In this document: one piece after another, positions 10,401-58,224 of the stretch
Position numbering within the stretch: the stretch's first letter is position 1
Layout of the letters: every line of letters begins with the position of its first letter
NCBI GenBank assembly: GCA_037893245.1
Contig: JBAIAA010000318.1
Span: forward strand, 186,001 to 250,000
Length of the DNA stretch: 64,000 nt
Direction of reading: 5' to 3'
Origin: Crossaster papposus
Lineage: Eukaryota; Echinodermata; Asteroidea; Velatida; Solasteridae
Notes under the pieces: generated by a model
What the model saw: only the letters and a program-made list of their open reading frames with translations
What the model was told of the DNA's origin: nothing
Databases searched by the model: none
Program-made: the position numbers and the translations under genes

Positions 10401-11452
10401 GATCAGAAACAACGTCTTTGGAACTTCTTAGCGCTAGTATGTGTTATGCGCACGCACCTGCTTAGGAGGGAGGGGGTGGGGTTTTGGGTTTTTGTTTAAC
10501 CGCTACGTCTACTCAGTGTTTTCCCAAGAGATTATTTAAGAAAAAATTCAGTCGGTAAATCAGCATGATTACCAAATGATTTAATGGCAGCAAATCTACC
10601 AATATCAGCCGACGTATTAACATCATATAAATTAAAGAAAGCACTTACTCCAATGGTGAAAGAGCATTATTGTAATACCTGCCTGGGAAATGGCTAATCG
10701 GATTTCCGCAAAAGATAGCCACGCCCTATTTAGTACACCGACGATTGCATGCAGGGCCTGTATCCGGTGTGAAAGGTAATTCTGTCCCCCCTGGTAAATG
10801 TGTCCCCCCGGACAGACTTACCAGGCCGTGACCCGGTAAATCTGTCCGGGGGGACACATTTACCTAGGTATTTCTGTCCCCCTCCAGGTAATTCTGTCCC
10901 CCTGCAAAATGTTAAACGTGTCCCCCTGGTAAATTTGTTCCGTGCGACGTCACAAGTCTAGCACCCACGTTCTTTTAGTGTATTTCCTGTTGTGTTTGCG
11001 CAGTGTCAACACGGACGCCTTGCGTAAAAAACGTGAAGCACAACGTTATTAACGATTGCATGCACATTGCTCGAGAGCTAGAGGAGGGATAACCTTGACG
11101 TCATAGTTAACAAATCTGGGGCGCACGTGAAACAAAGGAAGGGAACTAAATACGTACATGTCATGCACATCAGCTGATGAGTAAGAGTACGTGTATATAT
11201 ACAGTACATGTGTTTTGGTTTTTTTTTCGCGCGCGCTATGTGCTGCAGCTGCCCTGCATTGCAATATATTGTATAATTATTGCTCGACTATCATGCTTGG
11301 TCATACACACCCATTAGCCTTGATCGCTACTGCTAGACTTGGCTGCTGCTAGTGAAACTAAAATAGTAGTGGTTAGTTTGAAAAATTCTTCCTCCCTCCA
11401 CAACAACCATAGAGAAATAAGACTTATTTCTCCATGCTATAACTATCCCCGT

Positions 11453-11497
<45 letters not shown>
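11453..11497. repeat. Poly(dG) tract of 45
   Basis: An uninterrupted run of 45 G inside the left non-coding part of the Ginger1-like element. Run lengths of this kind are unstable in cloning and sequencing, so the true length is uncertain. Confidence 0.9.
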
Positions 11498-11498
<1 letters not shown>

Positions 11499-11611
11499 GG
11501 CAGGACTAGAAATATATTGGGCATGTACAATTTCCCACACATTTCGGAGTCCTACTACATGCCCCCAAAATGGTTATTTGTTTTGATTTGTGTTCATCTC
11601 TGCCAGTGAGG

Positions 11612-11682
11612 AATTGCTCAGTGATGCAGTGATTCCACCCACAACACATATGTTGGTGGAATTACTGCATCACTGAGCAATT
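11612..11682. repeat. Hairpin, ~28-bp arms
   Basis: AATTGCTCAGTGATGCAGTG is mirrored by CACTGAGCAATT and its inner continuation, with one mismatch and a 15-base loop. No duplication is visible, so it may be a tiny MITE or a structural element. Confidence 0.6.
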
Positions 11683-12611
11683 ATGATGTTTATTTATTTA
11701 TAGCGTAGGGGGAGGGTAAAACGGGGAATTTAAACAAATCCTGAACCCCCCCCAAACCCCAATAATAAATCATAAAAGGAATATTGCCACACTCTTATTC
11801 TTTGTAGTAATTGTACCAATACAAATATTTTATTCAATTCACTTTGTTCAAAGGTAACAAGGAGATGATTGGCGACAGGTAATGTGCGTCAGGTTGGGTT
11901 GACCCGGCCTAAACAGCTTCGGGTCAGATTTGCAAAACAGGGCTGCTATATCATATGCTAAAACAAACTGGCAAATTTGTAAGGGAATCAGACGAATTAA
12001 TTTAAAGCAGGTGATAACGCTTGGGTCTGCCTTAGCAAACACAAGTATATTTAAAAAAAACACTTTCTCACACTTGTGTACCGTTTAGAAATAATATTTA
12101 AACAAGAACAAAGTTTGTGTTTATTGAAAAGATAAAATACAAAAACAGTGCCACCGTGACTACATCGTGTCATTTCATATTTTGCATGATAGCTCAGTAC
12201 ATTGTTCAACCAAGTGCCCTGATAATTAAACTTTCCTTGTCATAAGAATGTACTTTCAGTGATGTAATTATTATGTCACCCTTTTTTCAAATGTAAAATC
12301 TTACTAAATTTATGATTAAACAAAGAATTATGTTTGCAAGATCAAAATCATACAAATTCCTAAAAAATGACATGATGGAGTAATTATGACCACGGACATA
12401 CCTCAATTTTGATCTGTATGCAATTAGTTTTATATGTAATACATAGGCTGTTTACGTACACACGTTTCTGAAAAGTATTACTTCAAACAAGAATGGCAAA
12501 GTAGCCATGGCGACATAGTTGTCAAATTGTAGTATGTACAAGTAAAGAAAACAAAAATGAAGTTTTTGACTGCTGACTAATATCGTTGGAGTGCACCATC
12601 AGTATATACCC

Positions 12612-12738
12612 AGCACGATATGTGGCAGAGGGGTACCCCCCTTTTATCCCTATACTTTATACGCACTCAACACTATTGTAACCTAACCCACCCCCCCCCT
12701 TGAAACCTAAAAGGAATTCCTGACATTCCGGGATATTT
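12612..12738. mobile_element. Truncated copy of the AGCACGATATG MITE
   Basis: One end (TATACCCAGCACGATATG) and the body through CTAAAAGGAATTCCTGA match the complete copies at 52.5 and 58.7 kb. The poly-G part and second end are missing. A run of C sits at 12,690. Confidence 0.75.
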
Positions 12739-13200
12739 GTCCCAGTTCTACCCCTCATATTTTGGGGAGACACAAATTACATTTTTATTCTTACAATTAC
12801 AACTCTCATTCCTTTCCCCCACCCCCACCCCCACCCCACCCCCGAATTTCATGGCAAGCTTTATAACCGAAATGTAAACTGTTAAGAAAGTCACATAAAT
12901 TCCTAAAATCAAATACCCATTTTTTTGTGTACACACAAATGAACTGAACATTGTTGAAATAGAAGTGAAAGTCATACATATGGTGAAGGTCTGAAGGGGC
13001 TATACTGAAAAGTTAGTACCGGAGCACTGGCAACTTAAAATCGCTATACCTAACGATTGCTGTCACAATCATTTTCTGTTGGTCCTGTGATGTTTGTTAT
13101 ATAGTGGCGTTTGACTGTAGCTAGAGACAAAAGCGTTTAAACAAATGCAGACAGCTGGACGGACGAACGAACGGACGGACAGACGTATGATATATTGACT

Positions 13201-16200
13201 TCAGAAGATGGAGTTCTGAACTTTGTTTTGCGCCATCTCAAGGCTGCAATTTGATGACAAGTGCTCCAGGTATGCTATCCCTTCCGGAACCAACACATCA
13301 GTCAGGTATTTGGTCCTTCAAATAATCATAGGAGGAAACACAAGTTTTAGATTACATTGTCAGGGAATAGATAAAGTTCTCAGCAGTTAGGCCGTGCAAG
13401 AAATAATTGAATGGACGAATAAGGTTAAACAGGTTTTCTTAAGGCTTTGAGAGTATCTCAAGTTAACATGTCTTATCTCATCTCGGGTATGTCATGTCAA
13501 GAGGCGATTACCTTGCTTAAAAACTATTCTAATGCTAACCATGACTAGGAAACAACCACTAAAGTTGATTTTGGGGCATTAAAAATGCATTTGATTGCTG
13601 GATTTAATGTCCTTTTTTTGAAATATATTTTCCCGGGTAAGCATGCCCTGGGGATCCCAAGCCATTGCTATTTGAACCCCCTTGTAATGACCCTTGGTAC
13701 GCCCCTGATACACCAACAAAACTGGGAGGGGGCATGCATTGTCCACTTCACATTGTTTTCAAGACTCACTCTACATCAAGGTATCCCAGCCGCTTTAGTG
13801 CATCTCTTAGAGCTTCCGGAAATTGAAATGCTCTCTCTTGAACAGCAAAGACATTCCTGTAAAAATAAATCTCTATTTTGTTAATACAGATTTGAAACCC
13901 CTATCTGCCAACAGCAAATATTGAATAACGTACTTGACATCATCTGTTAATAATATACAGTAGAACACTGAGAAGAAGAGGTACTTGGGACTTACTTGGG
14001 GAAGACCAATCAAAAGCCAGCAGCTCGCTCAGGTATTTATTAATACAAAATAATGGCCTCCACGTGACCAATCAGAAGCCATCAACTCTCCTAGGTATTT
14101 TTAACTTGTTGTAACAGATATCTTGTATTAACAGTATTGAAAACAAAAAAAACCAAAGACTTGGGACCTAAACGTTTCCTTGTTTTGAGCAGGATGTTGT
14201 AGTCAAAATGTTCTTATCAGTGTTCAACTGTATTTGGAAGAATTTGCCCACTAGCCACTTATCCCTCACCACAGTACAATACTCTGGCTTTATCAAGGTG
14301 TAAATAAAGATGGGGTTGAAGTTTGTACCGGTACCATGAAGGTATGTTTCCACAAACACAAATGTACATGTACATGGTAATGGCATACCTTGTGCAGCCT
14401 TGCTTGTCGGGGGCATTGTAGTGTGAAATCAACCTCTCAGTTAGACCTTGCTTATTCTGAATGCAATTAAAGATTATTGAAAGATACAGGAGATGAAGGA
14501 AAATATGACTGATGTGACAGTGATGGACATTGAGCTTATCTCAAATAATGTATTTAACCTTGCCCTTATTTTGAAATGCACCAGTACATACATTCCAAAT
14601 CTTTTAAACTTCTAAAAGAAAATGAAGCTTTTGACAATTGTTTGTTATGGAGATATTGCTTTCAGATTTTTTTTCTCGCATAAATTTCAGCAATACAAAC
14701 TATAACAACCCCAAAGTTTGGCTTTTTTATCGAGAGTTCAGATAGGGAAAGTTATGCTTATCAACTACCCTCGACAACAAACCTATGGAAAGCCTGCTAA
14801 TGCTCCCATGAAATGTACCTTTGGTGAAATGACAGTCATGCCAAATTTAGCAACTTTGCGACCTTGCCTTGCTTGTCCATTAAGGAAATGTTGGCCCAAC
14901 TGTGACCTATTAGTACAAAAAATGCAACAATAGCTATAACTGTGGAAATGAGTAAATGCACAATTCATTTGACTTTATCTAATGCTCAATTATTTTTCTA
15001 CCTTGAATTCAAAACCTTTGGGTAAAAGACCAATGCAGAGATAATCGAAAAATATAAAAGAAATCATACCTTATCTGACCATTCATAATGGAGTTCAAGT
15101 AGGAAATTGCAGAATCAAACTGAAATAAAGCATACAACATGAACGAGAAGATTTAACTTTTAAGCCTTACAAATGACACACTTTATAGGAAGTAATTCAC
15201 AGAATGTTATAGGCTTGGGCGATAATTCGGTAATACCATGTAGTTTGGTAGTTCGGAAATCCAATACCAAGGCAGTTGTAAAATATCTACATTGATGTGA
15301 TGATGCACAACATAAATAATATATACTGTAAATTCGGGAGTCATCTCTCATTCTCGGCACATGTTTTTTACAGCAGCAATCAGTTTCTATTTTGGAGGCA
15401 TTATGGAAACTTCATTTGCTTAGTTCCGATCGGTACACATTATAATGCATGTTGCAATCGCCTAGTATTTTTTTCCAAAGAAGTACATGCTGTTTCTGTT
15501 AATAAAGACAAACCAAGTAAAAGCACATCACCCAGAATAGCAGCGACAATATAATTATGAATTATGTAAATGTTGTTATTGTTTTCACATCTTCCACCAA
15601 CATTGTTTGCACAGTATGATTAGGGCAATACCTCTTATCATTTTGATAAAAGAATTTCAAAAATAATTTACATGTCTTTTGATGAACTCTTCTGTCACTG
15701 TGAATTCCATGTCCTCTTGCCAGAGGGTAGTGTCTAGCTGATGCTGCAGCTGTGGTTGCCAGTTGCCATTGCAAAGTTGCAATGTTCTTCCTGGTGTTAA
15801 GACCAAAATAAAAATAAATATCATGACGGCGTGGCAAAACTCTCTCCTCTCCTCTCCTCTCCTCTCCCTTAACGTGCACACTCACTGCTTTTTTTTCAAT
15901 GGCTGTCAGTGCAGTTGTCGCAGCCTGATTAAAGTCTTGTGATACCCCCTGCATTACATACCTCTTTGGTAGTCTCCCCCCCCCCTAATTTTCAACAGCT
16001 TGTTTAGGAAAAACCTTTTATTTTACTCCCGACATAGAGCTCTGGTGATGGTCAGTCAGTAGACATTCATAACCAATCTTACACTGGATCACTGTGAGTG
16101 AACACTACATTAAAGTTTGATCTGCTAACTCACTGGATGTTTTGTGTCATCTGTTTCATAATGAATAATCCGTGGTGATCTTGTTGAATGTTAGCTGGGG

Positions 16201-17907
16201 TGCAACAACGTAATAGTGGCGTTTTTGTTGTGTTTTTGTCATGTGCCACACCTCACAAAGTAAACTCCACAAATATTACCTAGCTTTAAGTGCAACAAGT
16301 CCTAATTCTTACCTTTACGATAGAAACATCCACAGATCTCCTTGTCCCAGGATTTGCCAAGGTTGTTGGTGACACTGCCCTCATCAAACAGCAACCACTT
16401 GTCCCCGTCTGTCTGTACCACAGCCACATAGTGTCCACTTGCCAGAAATTCACCCTTGTGACACTATTTGTTTAGAAGGAAAATATGTAGTGCACACAAG
16501 GAAGTACTATCTAAAGACAGCCACAACTTTAACAAATTGGGACTCTTGCTGACCCCTAATATCAACTGTAAAAAGACCAGCCTTTTTTATGTGGCACTGG
16601 GATAAATTTTACAGATGTGAAGTGATTTGTAATCAAGGGTCACACTTCCGATTCAAACAATAAAATGGCACCGATGCGACACTTCACATTAAGACTACAT
16701 TATCTTACCAATACGGCAACAAGTCTGTACTGCAGTCGCAGATGATCTCCAATGTCTAGAAAGATTTCTGGTGAAGCAGATATAGGTACATGGCTCTTGC
16801 GGAGACCAGACACACTAAGGTCATCCGCCCAGTTCACAGAAGCAACTTGAGATACATCCCACCTCTTTAGATTGAGACACAGGACAGTTGGCGTTTCATG
16901 CTCATTATGTACCACAGGAGCCATCATTACCTCTTGAAGATCATACCCACTAATATGGTGCAAAAAAAACACATTGAAATTTCATCAAGTACACAGACAG
17001 ATGATTTTGAAATAAGCTTAGATACTGTTTTGGCTTTTGCATCTAAATGTACACAACTAAATGTACTTGGGAATTGAAACTATACTCAGTCATAAATGTT
17101 GGTGCATGAGATTCAAGTGCAACTTCTCAATTATTAATTCAGTCATACAATGTGAAGCCAATGTCAGGCCAGCTTCTTGTCAACAAGAACAATGGAAAAA
17201 CTTCCCAGGGGTATTTAATATTAGTGCAAGTCAAATAAACATCCTCTTTTAAAGAAAAAAAAATGGCCACAGTAATTAGGCAACAAAAACATCCCTTGCT
17301 CAGACACAGTAAAATTGTAATTACCACCTGTCGCAAACTCCATTAAAGGGTACCGGGTTCCAGTTCCAGAATTCAGTAAGAAGTTCTGAAACATCGGATG
17401 CCTCATCTGACTGTGCTTCTAGAGGAATGCTTAGCAAATTGCTTTCTCCACTTCTCCATTTATTATCGCACTTTGTGCACGACAGTTCATTCCTCAGCCC
17501 AATGGTGAAAAAGCTGTGGAGAAAAGAAAGTCCAAAATCATTCCCACTTCTAAGTGAGGGGGGATTAATAAACTTGCTGTGAGGTTATAAGGCCATCATT
17601 TGTTTTACCTCTTGAGAAAACTGCAGTCTCCAACACAGTGAGTGCAAGCTGCATTTTTGAATGACTCAATAAAATCGAAGGCATCCTGCTGCAGCTTGTT
17701 GTCGAACTTCGGGAAAAGCTTTTTCAGGGTGACAACGACTCCCTCCACTGCACCATCAGTGATTTCATGTCCAACAATGTCTTTCAGGACCTCCAAAGCT
17801 GGGATGTGATGGCCATCACTCAAGAAGTATTCCCCAATAACTCCTGTATTTGCGATAATTCTTGCGACAGAAGTCATGTAGCAAGTGTTCCTATTTTGTG
17901 GAGCGGG
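13201..17907 (-). CDS. USP deubiquitinase part of the Ginger1-like gene
   Basis: Exons (minus strand): 17907-17609, 17513-17328, 16949-16709, 16463-16313, ~15999-15886, 15790-15672, 15119-15070, 14906-14819, 14456-14389, 13856-13770 and 13315-13201 (TGA stop). Most junctions keep codon phase. The first exon carries the USP Cys box (NTCYMTS, Cys nucleophile) and a QQDAFDF block. The second has a zinc-finger-like CTKC and GLRNELSC. The third has PTVLCLNLKRW, the fourth GHYVAVV with the catalytic His and FDEGSV. So nucleophile and His box are both present, as in an active ubiquitin hydrolase. The last ~190 residues after the USP core match nothing I know. The exon at ~15999 begins in a G10 run and ends after an A8 run, so its frame is uncertain. 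The gene lies inside the transposon and is probably read from the integrase exons upstream. A separate host-derived USP gene is the alternative. Confidence 0.75.
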
Positions 17908-18241
17908 CTGTGTAGCAACGACATATTAGAAATGTGTACAAAGTGAATAGGCCAATGTAAACAAACAATTGGGTTTTTTTTCAATTCAAAAAGCAATATT
18001 TGGCTGGGTAATATTTAGAAAAAGTTCTTTTATGAAGTGCTGAAAGGAATGTTACTTGCCAATAAAATTTAAAAAAACAGAGAACTAAAGTTGCCAAAAT
18101 CAGGTTTTGGGGTTACTTGCCATAAGTAGAATATACATATAAAGTGACCTTCCAAGTGATCTTTATGTGTTCATATGTTTACTGATTATGTGCATGCAAG
18201 TAATTAACTTTTTTAAAAACCAGTTAAATTTCATAGAGGAA

Positions 18242-18508
18242 CAGAGAGAACGCAATAGGGATAAAACTTCAAGAGAACGCAATAGAGATAAAACTTCAAG
18301 AGAACGCAATAGGGATAAAACTTCAAGAGAACGCAATAGGGATAAAACTTCAAGAGAACGCAATAGGGATAAAACTTCAAGAGAACGCAATAGGGATAAA
18401 ACTTCAAGAGAACGCAATAGGGATAAAACTTCAAGAGAACGCAATAGGGATAAAACTTCAAGAGAACGCAATGGGGATAAAACTTCAAGAGAACATTCAA
18501 CACAATGG
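18242..18508. repeat. 27-bp minisatellite, ~10 copies
   Basis: The unit GAACGCAATAGGGATAAAAC plus TTCAAGA repeats about ten times nearly without change. Since 27 is a multiple of three, it creates open frames on both strands. It lies in the intron between integrase and USP parts and is not called coding. Confidence 0.9.
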
Positions 18509-18955
18509 GGATAAAACTGTGATGACCTGGTCTTTACCAGTCAAAAAATAGCTTTTATCCCCTTATTACAAACATTCTAGATCTGAAAAGTTGAACCTTA
18601 ACAATAACAAAAACTCATCAAAAGTGATGAACTATCAATGCAATGTTATAATTGATAATGTAGTAACTACCGAACAGAAAACGCTTCACCTACCGATAAT
18701 GTAATAACAATTAGCATATAAAATATGGTTTAGTCAGTTTTAGGATGGACAAACAGTCACAAGTATGGTAATTCCTGTGTACTCACTGAGTCCTTTGACT
18801 TCTGCTGGGACCTGACATCTGGTACAAAGGCAATAATGCATAGTTGTTTGATTTAAATCACTTGATTTAAATCAAGTGATAGAAACACATTTTTTGTACA
18901 CCAGTGATTTGCGATGATGTGACTAGTTTGATATACAATATGTCCCTGACCAATT

Positions 18956-21900
18956 TCAAATTGGCACGGAAACCAAGGACATGAGTGCTATCATTTGAAG
19001 CAAGGTTAAAACAAGGGTCTTAAATGTCATACATGGGCTTAGCACCCGCAATTCCAATTTGAAAGTCATCTGAGTCCACCTGACCTTGACCGAAGTCTGC
19101 CTGACCTTGACATGGGCCCACTTGACCTGGGCCATGAGGGTTGTAGCCTTGGACTGGGCCTTGAGGGTCAATATCAAAGCCTCAGCCTTGCGAGTTAAAC
19201 CTATGGCCCAGGCCTTGGGAGGTAGAGCATTTCCGCCAACACTAGTGAAAAACAGTCATACAGTATGAACATGTCATATGAACATGTAGCAGGTTGCACT
19301 GAAACATCAATAAAAAATAACCAGGACAATGAACAGCATGAAAAGGATTCAGATTTACCTCCCTTACTAGCGAAATATTGCTTTAAGTGGCAGCCATTGA
19401 CACTACTGGACCGTGGCTCCTTTGTCTTAGCATTGGTCAGGTTGTACAATCCTTTTTCGTGCACCGCCATAACAATGTAGGGGCCAGTCCAATTTGGCTG
19501 CAGTTTGCCCCCTTTTCGAGTAGCCTTTCGTGCATTCTTTAGAAGCACAGAGGTCCCAACTGAAAATTGCTGCAGAAAAATGCAAGAACAAGATTAAGTC
19601 TTGTTAAAGTTTAACTTTTTACTTTGTACAAATTAATAATCAAAGGTTGTTGCTAGATTGAGAAGTGGTGGATAGCAGTGTCATTTATGGATTGCTGGGC
19701 TTCATGAATTTGGGGTTGGTTGGGGGGGGGTTTGTGCACGCTTCCCCCCCCCCCCCCCCCCCCCCCACACTTTCTACGGGGAGGGGGGGGGGGGGGGGGG
19801 GGGGTGGCGGGGGGCAGCAGAAGTCCAGGTGAACTGAGCAAAATGATATAAACTATATAAAATATATATATTCAGTGCTCCCTTTTAAAAATGTGTGCAT
19901 CCCCCGGGTGCCTTCCTGGAAGATCGACCCTAGTTACGCCACTGGACAGTGGTCATAAAACTGATTGTTTAGAGATACCTTTTTGGACTGGTGACGCTTA
20001 TCATAGTTGTACTTCTGTCTGGCCTGTGCCTTCAGGATGTTCTTCTTCGCCTGGGGTGCCACTGCCTGTCTCACTGCCATCATGGACCTTACAATAGGTT
20101 CGGCTTGGTCAACCCTGTCACCACTGCCATCGGGTTGAACACTACAGCCACCACGTTGATCGCTACGGCTACCAGGTTGATCGCTAGGGTCACCGGGTTG
20201 ATTGCAACGGCCACCAGGTTGATCACTACGCACATCAGGTCGATCACGCAGGTCAATGGGCAGAACAGGATCCCTGTACACAAAAAAATTGAACAATATG
20301 GTAATGCATATTTGTAGAAGACTGCGGTTGTGTGTCGAAACACAAACTAAATATTAAGACATGTGGAGCCCAGATCTTTTTTCTTTTTTTTAATTATTGT
20401 GTTTACATGTATATATATTTTTTTTAACAGCTGAAAACATATGTCATGTAAAACACAAACTTAATCAACGGTTCATTTGAAATAACTATAACTAGACAGA
20501 AATTACAGCTAATTTACAGCAAATATGACATAAAAGGGAAACAATGAGGTCTAAGATGTCATCAAATCTGCTAACACAAAGTTAGCACTGTTCCCTTACT
20601 GTAAGTAAAACTAGTTCAATCCAAAAGGTGCGACAAGAAATAGGAAACAGCAGAAATCATTTGTTACACCAACAACATACAGTACTGGTCAAGGGCATTA
20701 TATTTGCTGTTAGATTGATATGGGGCTATAGAGATTGGGATTTAAAGCTTTACATGGTGGAGACAAGACTGAGAAAATTTGCGGTAACACCATAAATTGG
20801 ATCTCTTAAGAAGAGGTAGGGTGGTTCTGATAAGAACCGGTTGGTTTGACACGACGTTTCGACCAGTGTCCTCAGTTTGTCCTCAGGACGACCTGAGGAC
20901 GTGAGGACCTTTTTCACCTCAGGACGACCAAAGCACACTGGTCGAGTGAGTGAGTGAGTTTTTAGGGTTTAACGCCGTACCAGCATCAATGGCCATATTC
21001 ACGGCGGGAACAAATTTCATTCAACAATTTTTTATTTCATTCAACAATTAATGTGAAGAAGTTACAGTTTTAGAGGTGGGAGGAAAACCCCAGAAGAATA
21101 TCCTGGGGAAAAACCCACGGAGTCAGGCAGGGACTGAAAACCCAATCCACATATTGGCCCAGGCCGGATTCGAACCCGGGTCATAGTGGTGGAAGGCGAG
21201 GAAAGAACCGCTACACCAACCCGACTCCCCCACACTGGTCGAAACGCCGTGTTAAACCAACCGGTTTTTATCAGAACCACCCTACCTCTTCTTAAGAGAT
21301 CCAATCCATGGTATTACCGCAAATCTTCTCAGTATTATATTATTATGTACACAAATTTAAAAGACAGTAACGTGCTAATACAAAGAAAACCAACAGTGTG
21401 TTAAGTCCTTTACCTTCCATACATAATAAAAAATGGTGAATACCCGGTGGAAGCATGAACTGATGTTCTATATCCAAATAGGACAGCATCTAGGTTCTCA
21501 TCCCAGTTGTCCTCCTTGTCATTGACAACTTTGGCCAGACACCGTTGCAATGTCTGATTGAACCTTTCGTCCAGCCCATTCGTCTGTGGGTGGTAAGCCG
21601 ACGTCATTCTGTGCTCTGTACCAGTTAGACGAAAGAGCTCCTGATTCACTTTGTTGACAAATTCCCTTCCCTGGTCTGTAATAATAGTCTTGATACACCC
21701 AAGCCTGAAAACGAAGGAGAATGAACTTTTTACAACAGGTAGTACCGTACGCAGGAAAAAATATATACACACAAAATAGGCCCAAAAAATGGAAGCTTGT
21801 TGAGGTTTTGCTTTCCCTTGAACAATATACATTTGTCAGGCTAGAGAGTAATATCACAATATGCTTACACTATAAAACGGGAATGTCTCTAATGCTTTTA

Positions 21901-24043
21901 GGGGTCTACAAAGTTTCGTCATTTGCCCGTATTTTCTCGTTTCAGACATTTTTATCCCAAACAACAGCATTTTAGACATTCATGGTTCATAGTGTTATAA
22001 AATGTTTGTGTTTCCTGAAGGTTAATGTCACAGGGCACAAGGTCTATAGCAACTCTGTTCATGAGTAAAGTGTCACCTTACTCTTTCATACTGAAAGTTG
22101 TTTCATACTGCTAAGAAGCTGATACTGACTTTCGTCTCAAAGATAGCTTTTATGAACAACACTTTTGGGCCTTACTGTTCAAAACCAGCCTATGTGGAAG
22201 AATAGGACATAAACGCACACCTACGTTGTAAAGGTCTTATAAAGAAACAGTGCCACTGTCAGACTTGATTTGTTGGGAACAGCCTCAGATACTGGCCACT
22301 TGGAGAAAAAAATCACAGAGTGTGATTAAGTATCTGTTCCCTCTCGGGGTTTCTTTGAGAGGGCCAATCATGTCCAATCCAGCCTGTGCAAAATGAAATA
22401 ACAAAAAATACTTCATGCGCAAGTTTAAAAAACACATTATTAGTAGTACATGTAGTTGGTTGTACATATTTTGTTGTTTGGAGGCTATGAATGACTACAC
22501 ATCTGTTACCGGTAACAACTTGCCTGATCCCATACTCTAGACACTGGTATCGGATGGAGGGCTGGTGTTGATTTGGCGAGTGTGCTATTCCCGCGCTGGC
22601 ATACATCACAACGTTTAAGAAATTCCTTGACATCTGATTGGATGCCGGGCCAAAAATACCTCTTGGCGACATTGTGGTAAGTTTTGTCCCGTCCGAGATG
22701 GGCACCTAGGTGGTTGGTGCAGGTAAAAATAAAGGAATACATGATGTAGTATATAAAACTGTGGCCAGCAGGCAGGGTTGAGAGATTTGCCGGACACACG
22801 GTATCACAGAATTGGCAAGAATACCAAACCATCACTGTGCAATATATGTAGTGATATGGGCCACACACTCTGCAATAAAGTGCTTTGCTTGGTCAAGTTG
22901 TCTTCATGTCAAAGTCAACTTGTCTTGTCTCATTAGACTATTTGACAGACAGTCCCACTTTTTTTTTACAATACAAATGTTTAACCAAGTGCAAAAGAGC
23001 ACAGTTCTTACACCCACAGCCCATGTCAAAATTGATAGGAGAGGCAAAAATGATCAGGGGCTAATCGGTCAAATAATTGTAGGTCAACTCGCCCCTTACC
23101 TACTCGTCCCTTACCAACTCACCCTCTAACTGACTCGCCCCTTACAAACTCGCCCCCTGGCCAACTCGCCCCTGGCCTACTCGCCCCCGACCGACCCGCC
23201 CCCTGGCCGACTCACCCCCTTAGTAGGCAGTCCACTCGTTTGAACCATGGACCTTAAAGTTGTAACCATAAAACGTGTCATTTTGAGGAATAAAAATGAA
23301 CTCTGAACCTAGACATTAACTCATTTTTTTCCCCAATATTAATTATGTATCATTGAAAAGAGATTCACATATACCACACGCAATTTATCGATAAATCGCA
23401 TTTATCAGAATTTGGAAATTTCAGGTCCTGAAATAGGCCGCCTATATTACGTTGTATAACTTTTTCAAAACCTATAAATATAAAATAGCATTCCTCCATG
23501 GGCCTATCCACAGAAAATAATAGTTGTTTGGAATCAGATTGTATCGCTTGTAACAAAAACTATTATTGATTTTATATTATTTACAATTTATCTGTGGGCT
23601 GAGAGTACGGGCAAAATACAGTACATTATGTCTAGGTTGACAGCTCATTTTTATTCTGCAAAATGACACATTTTATGGTTACGGATACATCGGTCATCGT
23701 ACAAGGTCCATGATTTGTACACAACGTTGTACGTTACACAAGTCAACGGAGGAGTCCAGTCTGGGCGAGTCTAGGACTAACTAGACATGCTATTGCTAGT
23801 GCTACTTGCTAGGCCGTAGCCGTAGGTACCTGAGACAGCGTGGATGGCGTGTAATTTGTGTTGTTGTTCCTCAGCATACGCAACAACCAGCCGTCCACTG
23901 TAGAACAGATTCCCCCCTTCCAAAGTGAATGACTTTGCTTTTCTTCTCAGAGCCCTCTTTTGGTTTTTATCCAGGTCTGGAGGGTGTTGTCCTGAAGACA
24001 GGAACTCTATAAGTCGCTGCACCTCCTCCATAAAGTCGGCCAT
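18956..24043 (-). CDS. Gypsy-type integrase (transposase) part of the Ginger1-like gene
   Basis: ATG at 24043 in good context (GTCATGG). Exons: 24043-23830, 22705-22524, 22383-22225, 21704-21414, 20273-19979, 19569-19359, then a linker exon from 19180. All these junctions agree in phase. Residues 1-71 are an N-terminal lead. Exon 2 holds the zinc-binding H2C2 module (AHLGRDKTYH...CDVCQ, with RYFWPG). Exon 3 supplies the first catalytic Asp (GLDMIGPL). Exon 4 supplies the second Asp (IITDQGREF) and the Glu (LDERFNQTL). Exon 5 is a Gln/Pro/Asp-rich stretch ending YDKRHQSKK. Exon 6 is the GPY/F module (PNWTGPYIV). The protein should cut and join transposon ends. Exon 3 has an extra T in a T7 run that breaks the frame. 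The intron after exon 2 uses a GC donor. The Gly/Gln-rich linker exon meets a TAA at about 19,020. Confidence 0.85.
19744..19804. repeat. Poly(C) run facing a poly(G) run
   Basis: About 24 C, then a short spacer (ACACTTTCTACG) and about 21 G, inside an intron. The two runs can pair with each other as a foldback. Confidence 0.85.
20768..21333. mobile_element. Foldback element interrupted by a SINE
   Basis: Inverted arms of about 130 bp. The left starts ACTGAGAAAATTTGCGGTAA and the right, reversed, starts ACTGAGAAGATTTGCGGTAA. Both run through GAAGAGGTAGGGTGGTTCTG to TTTCGACCAGTGT. The loop is occupied by a tRNA-derived SINE. It sits in the intron after integrase exon 4. Confidence 0.8.
20943..21227 (-). 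mobile_element. tRNA-derived SINE
   Basis: On the minus strand a tRNA-like head shows an A box (GGTGTAGCGGTT) and a B box (GGGTTCGAATCC) at normal spacing. The body follows, with GGGTTTTTCCCCAGGA, and an end rich in (ACTC)n. The pol III promoter boxes are well kept. It is nested in the foldback element. Confidence 0.75.
23083..23225. repeat. ~14-bp minisatellite
   Basis: Variants of CTCGCCCCTTACCAA are repeated about ten times in the first intron of the integrase gene. Confidence 0.8.
23246..23712. mobile_element. Foldback element, ~470 bp
   Basis: The left arm ATGGACCTT...GTAACCATAAAA...TGTCATTTTG...AACCTAGACAT is mirrored at the right edge, with gaps. No coding capacity. It is intronic in the integrase gene. 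Confidence 0.65.
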
Positions 24044-24670
24044 GACGACAACATGCGCTATGCGTACGTACCCATATCAAAGACCCTAGAGCGCCGTTGC
24101 CCTATGTACATGTACCGCGCGTACACGGTTGAGAATAGAATTTGTACGCTTGCAAAAAGTCTGAAATGATACTGATTACTGCCAATTTCCGTTTCTCGCA
24201 GAAACGTAGATCGGCCGATTTAATTAATAAAGCTATTTAAATGTTGATAATTCGATAAAGGGAAGAGAAGTCCAAATAATAAATACCCTGTGGGCTTAAA
24301 TTCATTGAAATAACATCAAAATAACCACTTATGTGTTGAACAATTGGGGGGACAAAATTACCTAGAGAGGGGACAGAATAAACTGAAGGGGGACAGAATT
24401 AACGGCTCCAGGGGGACACTTTTACCTAGGTAATTCTGTCCCCCCGGACAAGATTACCGGGGGACAGAATTACCTGCCACACCGGCATAGGGAACAATGC
24501 AAATGTTGTATTCGCTCTACAGGGTAAGTATTCGCTCGTAGACCCCATCCACACTACTGTGGGGGGGATTTTGATTTCATCATTTAAAGCTTGTTTAGCT
24601 TTAAATGATAAAATCAAAATTGTCATTGTTGCCTCAAAGTGTCTCATTTACTCGTGCTTGGTCACATATA

Positions 24671-25071
24671 TCAGTTGGTCAGGGAACCCTGGATTTCTGA
24701 TTGGATTCCACAATCCAGTGTGTATTCAGAGACCAATTTCGTTCCCATTCCACAAAGACTGTCCCCTCGACCGTTGCATATCAAACAGTTCATGATGGCA
24801 ATGCATGCAATATATTGTGTACACAACATTACCATCATGTACTGTTTGATATGGGACTTAACGGGACAATCTTTGTCATTCTGAGCCATGCAGCGCGCTT
24901 CTACAAGCTTTCTGCTAATAGCTCTCAAAGGACGATAATTCAAGAAGAGCCCGTTACACTCTGCGTGGCTCGGGATGCTCTTTGTGGAATTCATAAGAAA
25001 TTTGTCTGAAAATACACTTTATTGTTCAATCAGAATTCAATCAGAAATACAGGGTCTCCCTGACCAACTGA
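24671..25071. mobile_element. Foldback MITE, ~400 bp
   Basis: The ends TCAGTTGGTCAGGGA and TCCCTGACCAACTGA are inverted, and the match extends about 70 bp inward with mismatches. A second palindrome (CATATCAAACAGT / ACTGTTTGATATG) lies near 24,778-24,853. It lies just outside the Ginger1-like element. Confidence 0.75.
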
Positions 25072-31000: not shown

Positions 31001-31497
31001 TACGAAAGCCCAATCGTGCCACTGAAGTATATATTATTAGCGGAACTAATCCGTAATAACGGATTAGTAATTCGTTATAACGAATTACTAATCCGTTATT
31101 ACGAATTACTAATCCGTTATTACGAATTACTAATCCGTTATAACGAGTTAATAATCCGTTTGAACGAATTACTGATTCGTAATAACGAATTAGTATTTCG
31201 TTAAAACGAATTAGTAATCCGTTATGATGTGGAATTATACGAAAGCCCAATCGTGCCACTGAAGTATATATTATTAGAGGGAACTAATCCGTAATAACGG
31301 ATTAATAATTCGTTATAACGAATTACTAATCCGTTATTACGAATTACTAATCCGTTATTACGAATTACTAATCCGTTATAACGAGTTAATAATCCGTTTG
31401 AACGAATTACTGATTCGTAATAACGAATTAGTATTTCGTTAAAACGAATTAGTAATCCGTTTAAACGAATTAATAATTTGTTATTACGAATAATAAA
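31001..31497. repeat. Left end: duplicated terminal repeat with AATTCG arrays
   Basis: Two copies of a ~227-bp end unit, starting TACGAAAGCCC at 31,001 and 31,238. Each carries short palindromes of the form CGTTATAACG and CGTAATAACG alternating with AATTAGTAAT or AATTACTAAT. They are separated by GTTATGATGTGGAATTA, which is the reverse complement of the sequence just outside the right end. The arrays are likely transposase binding sites by analogy with other elements. Confidence 0.8.
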
Positions 31498-32061
31498 GCT
31501 GTGCGCGGCCGATGTCACGATCAACCCGAGTATAGGGTTGTCTATAACCAGTGTAGTGTGCATAGTAGTAGTCATGGAACCAGGACTATGTGATCTGTTT
31601 ATTCGACATTACTTTCATCTTGGCTGGAATTATGATGAAATACTGGGATCTCTGTTGCTTAACCACAACATTTTGATAAGTAAACGGACTTTGAAAAGAA
31701 AATTACGAAATCTTGGTTTATTTTGCCGAAAACACCATGCTGCTGTTTTTGACGTAGCTCGATTTCTTGAGACTGAGCTACAGCAATCAGGTAACTTACA
31801 TGGCTATCGATGGATGCATCTTGAATGCATTCAAAATGGGCTCAGCATTGACAGAGAAACGGTATGCTTGCTTCTAGGAATTTTAGATCAACAAGGCGTA
31901 GAACTGAGAAGACGTAAAAGATTACAAAGGCGACTGTATAGAGTTAGGGGACCAAATTTTATTTGGCATATTGATTCCTATGATAAATTAACTCTATATG
32001 GAATATGCATCAACGGATGTATTGATGGGTTTTCTAGGCGTATAATGTGGGTAGAAGCATA

Positions 32062-35000
32062 TAGTCCGGGAGCCCAGCCAGGTTTAATCATAATTTTGAG
32101 TGCAAAAGGTTTGAAGCGTGGGATATGTAGAGGTGACTGGGACAACTGCAAAATGGGTTTTCTTAAGTTTGGCGAGTGGTGCGTTGGGAGGGGGGAACCC
32201 CTGACAGACCCCCAAAAAATCGATTTAATCATAATCTTGAGTGCAAACATAATTTCTTCATAAGTCGAAAGTTTGTCGTGTACTGAATAGGATTTGTATA
32301 CTTAAGAAAATTATAATTGGTGCTAAGTACATTTAAGAAGGTCTCTAATTAGTGCTAATTATACGTTTGATCATAATTTTGAGTGCAAGGATAAAACAAG
32401 TGCCAATGTGTAGCTGACACCTGTCTGGAGTAAAATTCGCCACTTAAGAAAGTTTCAAGTGGTGCCATCCCTAATTAAGAAAGGGCCAAAGGTCATCATA
32501 AGTCATTAAACACTAATAATTATAACATTGAGTGCAACTTGCATTTATGTGTATATCAACAGATTATCGTAGACCGATCACTGATCACAAGCTTAAGAAC
32601 ATGATATATAATGCAAAGTCTAATTAAGAAGGTCTGTAATTAGTGCTAATTACACGTTTAATGTGTAGCTGACACCTTGCTGGAGCAAAATCCGCCACTT
32701 AAAAAAGTTTCAAGTGGTGCAATCCCTAATTAAGAAAGGGTCAAAGGTCATTAAAACTAAAAGTTAATAAACACCGATAATTATAATGTTGAGTGCAACT
32801 TGCATTTCTATGTGGATCAACCGTTTATTATGGACCAATCACTGATTACACGGCGCAATGTCCGATCAAATTGTCCAAATAATAAATGATTATAATAATA
32901 ATTGAAATCATAAAACGAGCGTCAAAGTGTACATGTACTTTACCAAACGCAGGAATAAAACCCACCACATAAGAAATATTACAAACAGTCATGAAGTTGA
33001 TTGCAATTGCCTGTACCCTCTCAAACACGAATGGGTGTAAATATGAAATACGTTAAAATAAGGGAATATGAGATCACCGGAGCTTATAATTTTAGGAACT
33101 TAACTTCTTAGTAGTTTTTAAGCTCAAACAAGGTTTGCATTAAAGTAGACAACAGTCAATACTGAGAACTTTATTGTAATGATATCATTAGCATTGGGTG
33201 ATGAGCTGCTTTGGAGTACGACGTTACGTTACGTTGTTCCTTAGTACAGTAGCTCGAAAGCGAAATTCCTAAACTTATGCAGCAGCGCGATCGTGTAAAC
33301 AAAATTGCAAAGCGCACAGGCTCACAAATCCATTGGGATTAATACAAAGACCTGTGGCACAATGTTAACTAATGCAATCCGCAGTAAAAAGAGTGAACAC
33401 TCGCACATCCGCCTTAGAAGAAATCAAAAGCAATTCTCCTATGATGTGGAAAACTCTGCAGGAGGTACTCTAATGAGCAGACAACTGAACTGTAACAAAT
33501 TCGATTACTTCCCCCAAAATTGATATTGACGATTCCGCCGACATTGCTGACACATTAAATAAACACGTTTTAACAATCGGCAAGCGTACTGCTGGTAATT
33601 ACCCTTTGCGTGAACTTGAAATAGATGACAATACTACCTTCAAGTCAACATTGGATATTTTCTGCCTTGTACCAATAAGCATACATTTAGTTTTGGTGGC
33701 GTTTAATGCTATAGATTGTTTCTTACGTACCAGTTGTGAAAACTATAACAGCTGTGTTTAAGCTGCTTTCTATTATATTAATGTTTGAGGAGCCACACGT
33801 TAATGTGGAGTCATCAGCTTACATAAATAAGTTGCAGTTTGGGGATATACAAAATGGAAGATCACTAGTATAAACAATGAATAAAAGTGGACCTAGTGTC
33901 GACCCCTGCGGAAAACCAGTGTTTACGGACAGGAAATTTGATATTTACAGACTGACTACGATCACTTAGGTATGACTTTAATAAACCATGATTACATCAG
34001 AAGATGCCATGATTAACACAATCAAATACTTTACTGAGATATATAAACACACTGCCTGTGCCTGTAATTTCTCTATTCTCCATGGCCTCAAAACACTTGT
34101 TTCTTAAGTCGTGTATAGGGTGCTTTCAGTTGAGTGCAGGGGTCTAAATCCTGACTGGCAACTAGGAATCAGATTGTTTTCATCAAGGTATCTATATACC
34201 GGTGTGCACCTATCTTTCAAAAATCTTAGAGATGATTGGCAGTAAAGAAATAGGCCGATAGTTACCTGTACTACACTTACATCCTCCCTTGTTAATTGGT
34301 GTTACATGTACTAATGCATGTTTCCAATTTTTAGGGTATCGCTCACATCTTATAGACATGTTAAAAATACAAGTTAAATATTTATTGATATAAGGTGAAG
34401 CAATTTTAACACTTCATCCAGACCTGTTGCTTTCCCAACCGACATGCCGATAGATGATATTTGCTTTTGAACAAACTCTTCTATAACATTAGGTACGGTA
34501 CTATGCATTCTTTATCAAGAGAATAATTGATAGATGTATTGTCATCTATTTCAAGTTCACACAAAGGGTAATTACTAGCAGTACGCTTGCCGATTGTTAA
34601 AAAGTGTTTATTTAATGTAGGCCCTATCACTTTATCAGCAATGTCGGCGGAATCGTCAATATTTCACCCTTTGGGGAAGTAATCAAATTTAGTACAGTTC
34701 AGTTGTCTGCTCATTAGGGAGTGAGTACCTCCTTCAGAGCTTTCCACATCATAAGTGAATTGCTTTTGATTTCTTCTAAGACGGATATGCGAGTGTTCAC
34801 TCTTTTTACTGCGGATTGCATTAGTTAACATTGTGCCGCAGGTCTTTGTATGAATCCCAATGGATTTGTGAGCCTGTGCGCTTTGCAATTTTGTTTACAC
34901 GATCGCGCTGTTGCATAAATTTAGGAATTTCGCTATCGAGCCACTGTACTAAGGCACAACGTAACGTAACTTCGTACTCCAAAGCAGCTCATCACCCAAT

Positions 35001-36137: not shown

Positions 36138-37229
36138 ATACACAACGAACAGTGATCCAGCAGTCATTGCCGGATATTATATGAAAGCAGTTTCTGACGA
36201 AAGAGGATGCCCGAGAGTTATTAGGGTTGACAAAGGGACGGAAAATTCCCATATTCGCGAGATGCAGCAATTTCTACGAAGAAACCACCAGGATTCGTTT
36301 GCACAAAGTAAGAGTTTCATGCAGTGGAGCAGTAAAAGTAACCAGAGAATTGAATGTTGGTGGAGCATCCTTCGTAAGCACTGCGCCCAGTTCTGGATGG
36401 ATTTCTTCACAAATCTGAAAGAAGAAGGATTGTTCAACGGTGATTACCTGGACAAATCACTTGTGCAGTTTGCTTTCCTAAAACTAATTCAGGTAGGTTA
36501 CTATGGCCTGCAATTTGTAAGCCCATCCACTACTGGGTGTGAATATTGAACACCCCGAGACGAAAACAAAGTATAAACACAAGAAGTTAGACGGATGAGG
36601 TCCGCCTTGTCATCAGTACAAGTAAATCACAGATTTTGTTATGGCCTTGTTATAAGTTAAATAAGTACAATCCCAACCTGTCCACCACCCCACCAACCTA
36701 AGCTTATCCACCGAAGGTTCACCCTCGAGTAACCAGTATTAAAACACCCTTCATGTTTGTACATTCCAACCCACCATCTTGGCAATTTTATGGTATTTTG
36801 CTTAACTAGTAGAAAAGTTGTTTATTTTTGTTTGCACTCCTGTATTACTGCATAGTACCTCCATGAGTAATTAAGGTACTGATAATAATTTTTTTACTCT
36901 CAAATTCACAGGAAGAATTGGACTCTATTGTACAAGAGTGGAATAACCACACCATCTCCCCATCCAGAAATCGACTTGGACCGTGATGTACACAATGCCG
37001 CAGCTTTACGCAGTTGATGACTATTTGAAACCAGTGCCGGAGGACGAAATAGATGTGTGCAAAAGTGAATGTGTCTTTAAAGACGAGTACCCATGTGATA
37101 AAGATATGTTTGACTTGTGCACCATCATGATGACAGAAATGCAGATGCCTGTGCCGAAGAGTTGTGAAGAAAGCCTTCAGCTTTACACGGCCCTAAGAAC
37201 AATGATCATGGACGCAATAGACTAAACTG

Positions 37230-40976: not shown

Positions 40977-42419
40977 TTAGATAACATCCAATATCCACAC
41001 ACAACTTTCCAAGACTGCATTAAACTCTTGTCTCAAGTCGACAAAACCTTCATAGGTTGCTGGAACCTCAAGTACACAGCCACATGTGTGTGCGACTGGT
41101 CTTCTTTGAAAGCCGTCCAATCTGGTAAATATTATACTGATTGCCTTATCAGAATGTACATCTGATGCAGTGCAAAATCGCAAAAACCTTTTTAGCATGC
41201 ACTCATTCAAAGACCTTACATACCTCTTAAGGTATGTGGTTATTGTTGCCTCATTTGCATTACAGTGTGGAGGAAACTGCAGTCTAGAAATTACCTGATT
41301 ACGGATGATAGGCACTTTCTGAGTGTCACCTACTGTAAACTTTGCAAAGAATTCCTCCCAAAATTGTGTTAGGGCATCTTGATACACACCACTACCTTGC
41401 CCAGCTTCCATGTCTCCATTTGGCAAAACCATGTGCATAGAAATGTTAGCATCCATGATTTCTGGATTGGAAAATGAATTGATCATGTCTTCCACAATCG
41501 CCACTCTTCTTATGACGAGCACCTCAAATACTTGTGAGGGGCTAGTTTCACCGCAAGAGCCTTGGTTGAAGGATGTGGAGGGCATGGTGTCATCTAGCTG
41601 GCTCTGATGATTTGGCAAGTCTCTGTGCCTGAATGAGACAGTTGGTGTATCTGGTTCTTGTATGTTAACATTTAGTGATGAGCATGCAGCAGTTGGTGTG
41701 TCTGATTGCTCGATGTCAGCAGATTGCTGAACTTCTGGAGATGGAGAAGGTTCTGGAGATGTACTGTCATGTACTTCAACTTCATTTCCTGGAACTTCAA
41801 AAGGATCTAAAAAGATTGAATCTTCGAAGTCCTGCTCTTCTGAGGAGTCTGACTCTATTACCTTGCGTTTCTTTTTACTGTCCTTCTTGCATTTGATTTT
41901 CGTTCTCAGGTAAAATCTCAAAGTCGGCATTTTTGTCTCATCGTACAATTGGCCAACAGTTACTGCCTCTCCTAGTGGCCGATGTCTAAAATCACAGAGG
42001 TCAAGCTCAAACTCACTCTCTTGCCCTTTGGAAGAAACATCCTCCCTGAAAAACAAACCTCTGGCAAGCTCAAGAAGATCAGCATGACCCATTGTTTTTG
42101 AAACACTTAGTTGTCTTGTACCACCCCCTGTTTGTTTTCGTACTTGCTTAAAGCTTTTGCTAGCAAAGTCAAAATCAATCCACCCAATGTCAATTTTTCT
42201 GTTATCCTTCGCAGCATTTCGATTCCCTTTTAGTCTTTCAGATTTGTTGGTACATGTAGCACTTGATTCCTCTTGTGCATGTTTAACTCCTAGCTTAACT
42301 CGGAGTTTCTGGAGGAGTGTGTCTTTTCTTGAAGAACTTCCATTGCCACTTTCAGGGTTTTGCGTTTTGGAGCAAAAGTTCCTCAAGGCTATCCCGTCTC
42401 CCAAGATTGGCACAAATTC
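40977..42419 (-). CDS. HECT-like ubiquitin-ligase domain protein carried by the transposon
   Basis: A single open exon of about 478 codons ending in TAA. There is no ATG near the start: the frame opens after a TGA at 42,420, and the first Met is near residue 108, so an upstream exon is likely. Residues 75-172 form a compact region (GWIDFDFASKSFKQVR, GGGTRQLSV, LRFYLRTK) that could be a beta-grasp-like fold. It is followed by a Lys-rich stretch and an acidic Ser/Pro-rich linker. Residues 298-475 resemble a HECT domain: IRRVAIVEDM and GVYQDALTQFWEEFF from the N lobe, FLRFCTASD, and RRPVAHTCGCVLEVP with the position of the catalytic Cys (~444) kept. At about 180 residues it is half the usual 350, so part of the N lobe, including E2-binding surface, appears missing. 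It faces the transposase gene within the same inverted ends. Confidence 0.7.
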   Translation of the reverse strand, partial: EFVPILGDGIALRNFCSKTQNPESGNGSSSRKDTLLQKLRVKLGVKHAQEESSATCTNKSERLKGNRNAAKDNRKIDIGWIDFDFASKSFKQVRKQTGGGTRQLSVSKTMGHADLLELARGLFFREDVSSKGQESEFELDLCDFRHRPLGEAVTVGQLYDETKMPTLRFYLRTKIKCKKDSKKKRKVIESDSSEEQDFEDSIFLDPFEVPGNEVEVHDSTSPEPSPSPEVQQSADIEQSDTPTAACSSLNVNIQEPDTPTVSFRHRDLPNHQSQLDDTMPSTSFNQGSCGETSPSQVFEVLVIRRVAIVEDMINSFSNPEIMDANISMHMVLPNGDMEAGQGSGVYQDALTQFWEEFFAKFTVGDTQKVPIIRNQVISRLQFPPHCNANEATITTYLKRYVRSLNECMLKRFLRFCTASDVHSDKAISIIFTRLDGFQRRPVAHTCGCVLEVPATYEGFVDLRQEFNAVLESCVWILDVI

Positions 42420-54696: not shown

Positions 54697-54900
54697 GGCC
54701 CTTTAATGCTTTACTCCGAATTGAATGCTTTTGCTTTTCGCTTGTACTTCCTAGCTTGTGCTAGTTTTTATTTATACGGCCCTGTGTTTAGAATGTACAC
54801 ACACCGCCTGTCTTGGGTTGGACTTGTATTTATATATCATTCTTGAGAATCGCTCAATTTGAATCCCAACATAAAGACTCCTTTTCCCCCATGTTTCCAG

Positions 54901-57900: not shown

Positions 57901-58224
57901 CTACAACAGCGAGGCCCCAGCTCTAGTCCCGTCTTCTTCAAGTCAGCTAATACCGCAGCTGACGGGTCAAAAAAGCTTGCCTTGGCCGATTTCTTTATTC
58001 ATGAAATAGATCAGATTATGCGAACAATATTTAGTGATATGCCAAATGTGACTATCATAGACGCCTGGGGAATGACATTGAGTCATAGGACAGGATACAG
58101 AATGCACCCTGTAGATTTAGTTCTAAGAGAAGAAATTCAGATGTTCCTCAACTTTTTATGCCAACCACACAGTCAGCCAGCCAGTCAACGGACGGCCACC
58201 GAAGAAGAAATTAAACCAGCTTAA
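54901..58224 (+). CDS. NXPE-family protein (neurexophilin-like plus PC-esterase domains)
   Basis: Exons 54901-55604, 56499-56563 and 57374-58224 (TAA). Splice sites are CAG|G, GT|GTATGT, TCAG|A, CAAG|GTATG and TCAG|CT, and every junction keeps phase. The first exon (~234 residues) has the Ig-like neurexophilin part: FFYIKDPKPSYNTCDVLNLY, GNGSYSARLTLMWAGEV, then a Cys-rich end (CDYSDAKAGTYWYCLKPKTL). The small exon gives GTKDFAYLSNAGPVKTVSVV. The last exon has the esterase motif YFYGDSTLRQW with its Ser, and the Asp...HP box near IDAWGMTLSHRTGYRMHPVD. So the GDSL-like catalytic set is kept. NXPE proteins are secreted or lumenal glycoproteins, some linked to O-acetyl transfer; the substrate is unknown here. 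The N-terminal anchor is absent from this locus and may be the exon at 26,521. No lesion is seen, so it is the best candidate for an intact host gene. Confidence 0.85.
56811..56975. mobile_element. 165-bp MITE with TTAA duplication
   Basis: AGGTCCAAAAAT at the left and its reverse partner ATGGACCT at the right, with TTAA directly outside on both sides (56,807 and 56,976). It lies in the last NXPE intron. A following hairpin (TTTAATGTGACA / GTCACATTAAA) may belong to a second, nested copy. Confidence 0.65.

Follow-up and report, generated by a model that had tools for sequence, protein, structure and literature searches.

The 64,000-nucleotide stretch of the Crossaster papposus genome analyzed here (contig JBAIAA010000318.1, positions 186,001 to 250,000; hereafter the window) carries a 13.7-kb mobile element at 10768-24481, with its gene on the minus strand. 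The unit was inserted as a whole at CCGG with a 4-bp duplication. It probably belongs to a Ginger1-like family that is low in copy number, rich in introns and recently active, and in which the integrase most likely continues into a ubiquitin-specific protease (USP) domain and a new tail. USP appears to be a partner new to Ginger1, OTU and Ulp1, unrelated to one another and acting in the ubiquitin or SUMO system, being the proteases already known.

Ends, insertion sites and copies of the element

The TGTG ends of the element (24481 and 10768) are both flanked by CCGG, and the outer ends, read inwards, are TGTGGCAGGTAATTCTGTCCCCC and TGTGAAAGGTAATTCTGTCCCCC. The inverted repeats start with 27-nt arms that are 93% complementary, followed by a one-sided unmatched stretch and then about 110 aligned bp, giving about 134 and 174 bp in all. 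Local alignment of the two 201-bp end stretches scored 58, against 20.5 or less in 500 base shuffles. Allowing up to 3 mismatches, the end motif GGTAATTCTGTCCCCC has 11 occurrences in the window. All lie in 10775-10902 and 24347-24474 (at most 135 bases from the element ends); 100 shuffles gave a chance expectation of 0.32 and a maximum of 3. These features resemble those given for Ginger1 by Bao, Kapitonov and Jurka 2010 (PMC2836005), namely TGTNR ends (here TGTGG and TGTGA), a 4-bp target duplication of CCGG or CCGT/ACGG, inverted repeats of 40-270 bp and an integrase with H2C2, DDE and GPY/F parts. The Ginger1-like transposon which the initial annotation had placed at these coordinates is thus upheld by its TGTG ends, CCGG duplication and clustered end motifs, and also by an unoccupied site.

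The pre-insertion site was found on contig C507, where 169 bases match window 10599-10767 at 100% and are followed by the upstream flank of another copy, C318b (99.6% over 233 bases). The two segments overlap by exactly CCGG. In the light of this site, the preferred reading is that a single insertion was duplicated to give the window copy and C318b, each of which would have lost one outer side. Independent insertion of the two, considered since their upstream flanks differ, was dropped in view of C507. A host gene made of a domesticated integrase and a USP, lying between two short elements with similar ends, would suit the intron-rich, host-like structure, and Ginger1-derived host genes are described (PMC12863088). 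The unoccupied site lacks the whole unit, which refutes such an origin unless a precise deletion took place; moreover, a second insertion block has this gene flanked by ends of the same type, and the end motifs occur nowhere else in the window. This explanation is therefore extremely improbable, and an arrangement of two short elements around a host gene was rejected on the unoccupied site together with the copies elsewhere.

Copies were sought in 1.02 Gb of genome (1841 contigs). The 185-bp upstream end gave 54 matches among the best 40 of 1017 candidates. Within this set were ten inverted end pairs, 13.7-14.0 kb apart, and 15 further ends about 95% identical that showed no USP match, one of the 15 having been read. 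The USP protein gave 51 exon matches at E<=1e-3 in 13 loci (46 of 46 candidates scored). A full match to the 100 residues of exon 7 was obtained at 12 of these, all in this element: ten lie between the inverted end pairs, and the other two are the window copy and C318b, where one end is retained. At the remaining locus, C693, only exons 8-10 are present. Exon 4 was found at 99-100% identity in 13 loci among the best 150 of 3154 candidates, 12 of them with the USP; at the 13th, C816, the contig stops 1.7 kb further on. Copies sharing the ends and carrying both domains, which the initial annotation had proposed to look for, are present in the matches scored. Besides the window copy, ten were fetched: nine of the ten pairs (all but C1273) and C318b. 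Substitutions are few, 19 in about 13.2 kb between the window copy and C1567 and 13 in about 13.6 kb between the window copy and C318b; between copies at the two insertion places the substitution difference is about 0.15%, and identity with gaps counted is 98.3-99.6%.

The nine fetched pairs have identical end-and-flank strings, and a comparison of six left flanks across 1035 to 1500 bp gave 99.3-100% identity, from which it follows that the paired copies represent one segmentally duplicated block. The block has CCGG on one side and ACGG on the other, without a clean duplication. In a counterpart without the element on C115, CCGG and ACGG sites lie about 780 bp apart. The preferred interpretation of the block copy is a fusion of two insertions, one at CCGG and one at ACGG, with loss of the interval of about 780 bp; this would account for the downstream end of the block, a 657-bp stretch that repeats the upstream end in inverted orientation. 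That inverted end (L041 200-862) stops exactly at the exon 1 donor, window 23830, which may be chance. The right flank of the block recurs at 100% identity at no fewer than 36 places among the best 40 of 306 candidates (C455, C156, C750, C905, C390 and others). These repeats are spaced about 100-300 kb apart within several contigs, indicating a very large repeated unit, and some units carry the element while some do not.

A 681-bp relative on C1186 has both kinds of end and CCGG, and window 10763-10968 is 96% identical to its end. Its unoccupied site, with one CCGG, is held by C115 (99% over 206 aligned columns). At 681 bp the relative is too short for an integrase, and thus looks non-autonomous and not like an ancestral USP-less form. 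The upstream flank of the window copy (24486-24720) is a high-copy repeat with partial inverted matches nearby. Among the best 40 of 642 candidates, the longer matches of this repeat mostly start at CCGGCATAGGG, the same CCGG as the duplication.

Domains encoded by the element and the candidate integrase-USP junction

From sequence and phase, 16 exons were modelled on the minus strand, from the ATG at 24,043 to the stop at 13,203-13,201; their numbering (Table 1) leaves out a candidate bridging exon. With the latter the full model has 17 exons and 16 introns, of which 15 are GT-AG and one is GC-AG; PMC2836005 likewise gives one GC-AG intron for Ginger1-5_HM. From exon 4 onward the full model runs over 777 codons, and its sole stop is the terminal one. 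The unusual length of the element is due in part to inverted-arm stretches in introns 1 and 4 and to a 27-bp tandem repeat in the long intron.

The integrase was recognized by Pfam and by motifs located by eye. Integrase_H2C2 matched with E 6.5e-17 and rve_3 with E 5.4e-7, above its cut-off, whereas rve, covering the half domain left after a break in exon 3, reached E 4.2e-7 and 30.6 bits against a cut-off of 32.6. The D, D and E residues were placed by eye, as was the GPY/F motif NWTGPYIV in exon 6, whose nearest Pfam family, SH3_Tf2-1, gave a weak match under the cut-off (0.077). In exon 1, HPP...LFY agrees by eye with three of the four positions of the YPYY motif.

Translated exons matched UCH (PF00443) with E 1.1e-21 and 78.1 bits, the curated cut-off being 23.9, so the USP domain with Cys and His boxes that had been reported inside the mobile unit is corroborated. 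All three catalytic boxes are in place (Cys, NTCYM; His, SGHYVAV; Asp, WLLFDE), and those of His and Asp align to USP12 (E 1e-6, whole query against solved structures). The domain is predicted to be an active deubiquitinase from its conserved catalytic residues alone; a SUMO-specific USP has reportedly been described. No OTU or C48 match was returned by Pfam for the element protein. Cellular USPs (USP12, USP46, USP15, USP14 and others in the PDB) are the best solved relatives, at E 1e-6 to 5e-5. They share the His and Asp boxes but are distant and are not joined to an integrase, and while many USPs have two CxxC pairs, the element has a single CxxC. Six further exons follow the USP domain and end at the stop codon. 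They form a 175-residue C-terminal tail in which Pfam gave no family match, an addition that also sets the element apart from Ginger1.

A direct junction of 19,359 to 17,907, as assumed in the initial annotation, failed: exon 6 ends with one base over and exon 7 at 17,907 begins in phase 0, hence the join is out of frame and runs into stops, and this splice was rejected. The frame is restored by a bridging exon at 19,180-19,033 together with an exon 7 start at 17,890, both chosen to fit. The real intron holds 45 such in-frame bridges, compared to a mean of 9.1 in base-shuffled introns. The open stretch with the Cys box has no ATG ahead of the active-site Cys; the USP therefore needs an upstream exon, a point firmer than the choice of linker. 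Under the same exon model, an open frame extends from the integrase to the tail in nine of nine fetched block copies (961 residues; 960 in C1067). Integrase and USP are likely to be parts of the same protein.

Several observations weigh against the integrase-USP reading and the picture of an active family. The join requires a bridging exon, and 99 of 100 base-shuffled introns hold at least one in-frame bridge; with the sites chosen to fit and bridges so common by chance, neither the precise linker nor the join is more than a candidate. The H2C2, DDE and GPY/F integrase of the initial annotation is borne out in its motifs, but the frame of exon 3 is broken in the window copy, while it is open in the ten other copies examined; the tail is frame-broken in C318b. 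The Cys box taken by itself gives a weak USP15 match (E 0.24), ranked below a designed protein (0.12). It reads NRNTCY without the glycine of the usual USP pattern NxGNTCY, and in the in-frame model the residues preceding it derive from the linker. Ten or more independent transpositions are ruled out by the shared flanks of the paired copies, and the copies are too alike for a selection test on the USP. A scan with the PF00443 profile, with 125 matches elsewhere in the genome, missed the exons of the element itself; exon-by-exon scans consequently overlook some USPs, and both USP scans of the genome were non-exhaustive. Finally, 13.7 kb and 16 modelled introns lie beyond the range of 2.6-7 kb and 0-4 introns published for Ginger1 (PMC2836005).

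The out-of-frame direct join, the ease with which in-frame bridges arise by chance and the 1.45 kb separating the two coding stretches would all suit two genes in one transposon, an integrase and a separate accessory USP gene between the same ends. The upstream exon that the missing ATG calls for could be the USP gene's own, though the need for it counts against this arrangement. So do the nine copies that read through under one model, even with its bridge chosen to fit, and the fusion to the integrase of the Ginger1 proteases described in PMC2836005. Two separate genes are accordingly considered unlikely.

Still less likely is a USP that is a passively captured fragment of a host gene without any part in transposition. 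Transposons are known to pick up pieces of genes, and the number of PF00443 matches shows the genome to be rich in possible sources; however, the catalytic residues are retained, ten consecutive exons are in phase up to the stop codon, and the frame is open in all nine block copies. Nor did the USP protein match anything outside the element at E<=1e-3 (46 of 46 candidates, in a scan that was not exhaustive). The initial annotation had named USP-less Ginger1 relatives alongside a free-standing orthologous USP gene as evidence that would tell against the pairing. Short USP-less relatives do exist, the 681-bp one having been read, but no close free-standing USP was matched in that same scan. One scan of viral contigs gave no viral source for the USP.

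Relatives in the genome and other features of the window

Apart from the element's own copies, the best exon 4 matches are 46-51% identical (best 150 of 3154 candidates, down to 40%). Identity is 49-51% to the Ginger1-like loci L061 and L063 and 46% to a Gypsy frame of L062, a small difference. One of the 46% matches that was read, C31, appeared Gypsy-like by eye (reverse transcriptase, RNase H), and these were not accepted as Ginger1. L061 is Ginger1-like, contains introns and is followed downstream by a Gypsy-like frame; it was rejected as a second Ginger1 with Ulp1, as Pfam gave sub-threshold integrase matches and no protease. At L063 (C117:2768500-2776000), integrase exons resembling those of the element (48% identity across 87 aa spanning the DDE exon and the one after it) are followed downstream by Peptidase_C48 (E 6.6e-6, above the cut-off, two stretches joined by eye); tblastn gave no USP match there. 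The parts of L063 would form one Ginger1-like gene with Ulp1, in which case the known Ginger1-Ulp1 pairing and the USP pairing coexist in the Crossaster papposus genome.

Intron-free USP frames of 1435-2088 aa were seen at C96:1499163-1500887 (L067 from 1500012), C364:156691, C360:754866, C7:2712267, C241:298580 and C643:861310. The C96 frame, the sole one read further, runs from the USP into a Ulp1 domain (Peptidase_C48 1.2e-5). The C96 and C364 frames both measure 1807 aa, a shared length to be expected of mobile-element copies. A KDZ transposase beside the C96 frame was considered and dropped, both KDZ matches being located elsewhere. No Helitron_like_N match lies beside C96:1499163 among the best 150 of 273 candidates, a scope within which a Helitron there may have been missed.

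The coordinates of the element are collected in Table 1. Elsewhere in the window, an NXPE-like host gene lies at 54847-58221 on the plus strand (Neurexophilin 8.6e-8, NXPE4_C 1.2e-65). A 480-aa open frame at 40980-42419 on the minus strand has a weak HECT match under the cut-off (3.4e-4); it may belong to a further mobile element or be a piece of a host gene. On the plus strand, 31424-32260 and 36139-36546 hold fragments of an integrase core of a different type (rva_4, 8.7e-11 and 8.4e-10).

Table 1. Features of the Ginger1-like element, in window coordinates.
Feature	Position	Strand	Description
Target-site duplication, downstream side	10764..10767		CCGG
Terminal inverted repeat, downstream	10768..10941		with subterminal GGTAATTCTGTCCCCC motifs
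Exon 16	13201..13315	-	last coding exon; stop 13203-13201
Exons 11-15	15790-15672, 15119-15070, 14906-14819, 14456-14389, 13856-13770	-	C-terminal tail
Exon 10	16313..16463	-	USP His box (SGHYVAV) and Asp (WLLFDE)
Exon 9	16709..16949	-	USP, including NLKRW
Exon 8	17328..17513	-	USP, single CxxC
Exon 7	17609..17907	-	USP Cys box (NTCYM); begins at 17890 under the in-frame model and at 17907 in the initial annotation
Candidate bridging exon	19033..19180	-	Gly/Pro/Gln-rich linker; alternatives possible
Exon 6	19359..19569	-	GPY/F motif NWTGPYIV, by eye
Exon 5	19979..20273	-	linker from DDE to GPY/F
Intron 4 stretch, 572 bp	20765..21336		inverted arms (105 nt, 92%); probably nested insert
Exon 4	21414..21704	-	second half of DDE core (second D, E)
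Exon 3	22225..22383	-	first half of DDE core; frame broken here
Exon 2	22524..22705	-	H2C2 zinc-binding domain; donor GC
Intron 1 stretch, 421 bp	23262..23682		inverted arms (55 nt, 89%); probably nested insert
Exon 1	23830..24043	-	start codon, YPYY-like region, first part of H2C2
Terminal inverted repeat, upstream	24348..24481
Target-site duplication, upstream side	24482..24485		CCGG

A probable USP partner in the place of OTU and Ulp1

The Ginger1 C-terminal domains given in the available part of Bao, Kapitonov and Jurka 2010 (PMC2836005) are OTU, Ulp1 and PHD. This agrees with the initial annotation in naming OTU and Ulp1 as the reported companions, and USP, put forward there as a new pairing, is not among the domains given. 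For one of the 16 Ginger1 families in Table 1 of that source, OTU/Ulp1 was not found. The element shares with Ginger1 a C-terminal cysteine protease of the ubiquitin system and differs in the class, USP (UCH) instead of OTU or Ulp1, and is read as a variant. A search of the open literature, with Repbase and subscription papers outside it, found no report of Ginger1 or another cut-and-paste transposase with a USP. Deubiquitinases encoded by a transposon are likewise known from Helitrons, which according to PMC9741609 encode tegument-like (VTD) and OTU enzymes proposed to protect transposition proteins. Helitrons differ in being rolling-circle elements without an integrase and in the enzyme classes they carry.

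The Gypsy-type integrase (H2C2, DDE, GPY/F) would excise the element, insert it at CCGG and duplicate 4 bp. The USP tethered to it would strip ubiquitin from the transposase itself, or from proteins assembled where the element is cut out and inserted, or would edit such marks on break-associated proteins. From the parallel with the OTU and Ulp1 of Ginger1 and with the Helitron deubiquitinases, it is conceivable, and tentatively suggested, that deubiquitination lets the complex survive long enough to integrate. Slightly more doubtful is the wider proposal of a transposase whose built-in USP shields the integration complex from degradation, with USPs taken up by at least two kinds of mobile element; its second part draws on the intron-free USP frames of 1435-2088 aa, among them the C96 frame joined to Ulp1.

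In cells, retroviral and LTR-element integrases undergo ubiquitination and degradation. A transposon with its own ubiquitin eraser would make host control of the integrase testable. If the pairing is true, a third protease class in the same place would mean that the selected trait is the removal of ubiquitin-like tags and not one particular enzyme.

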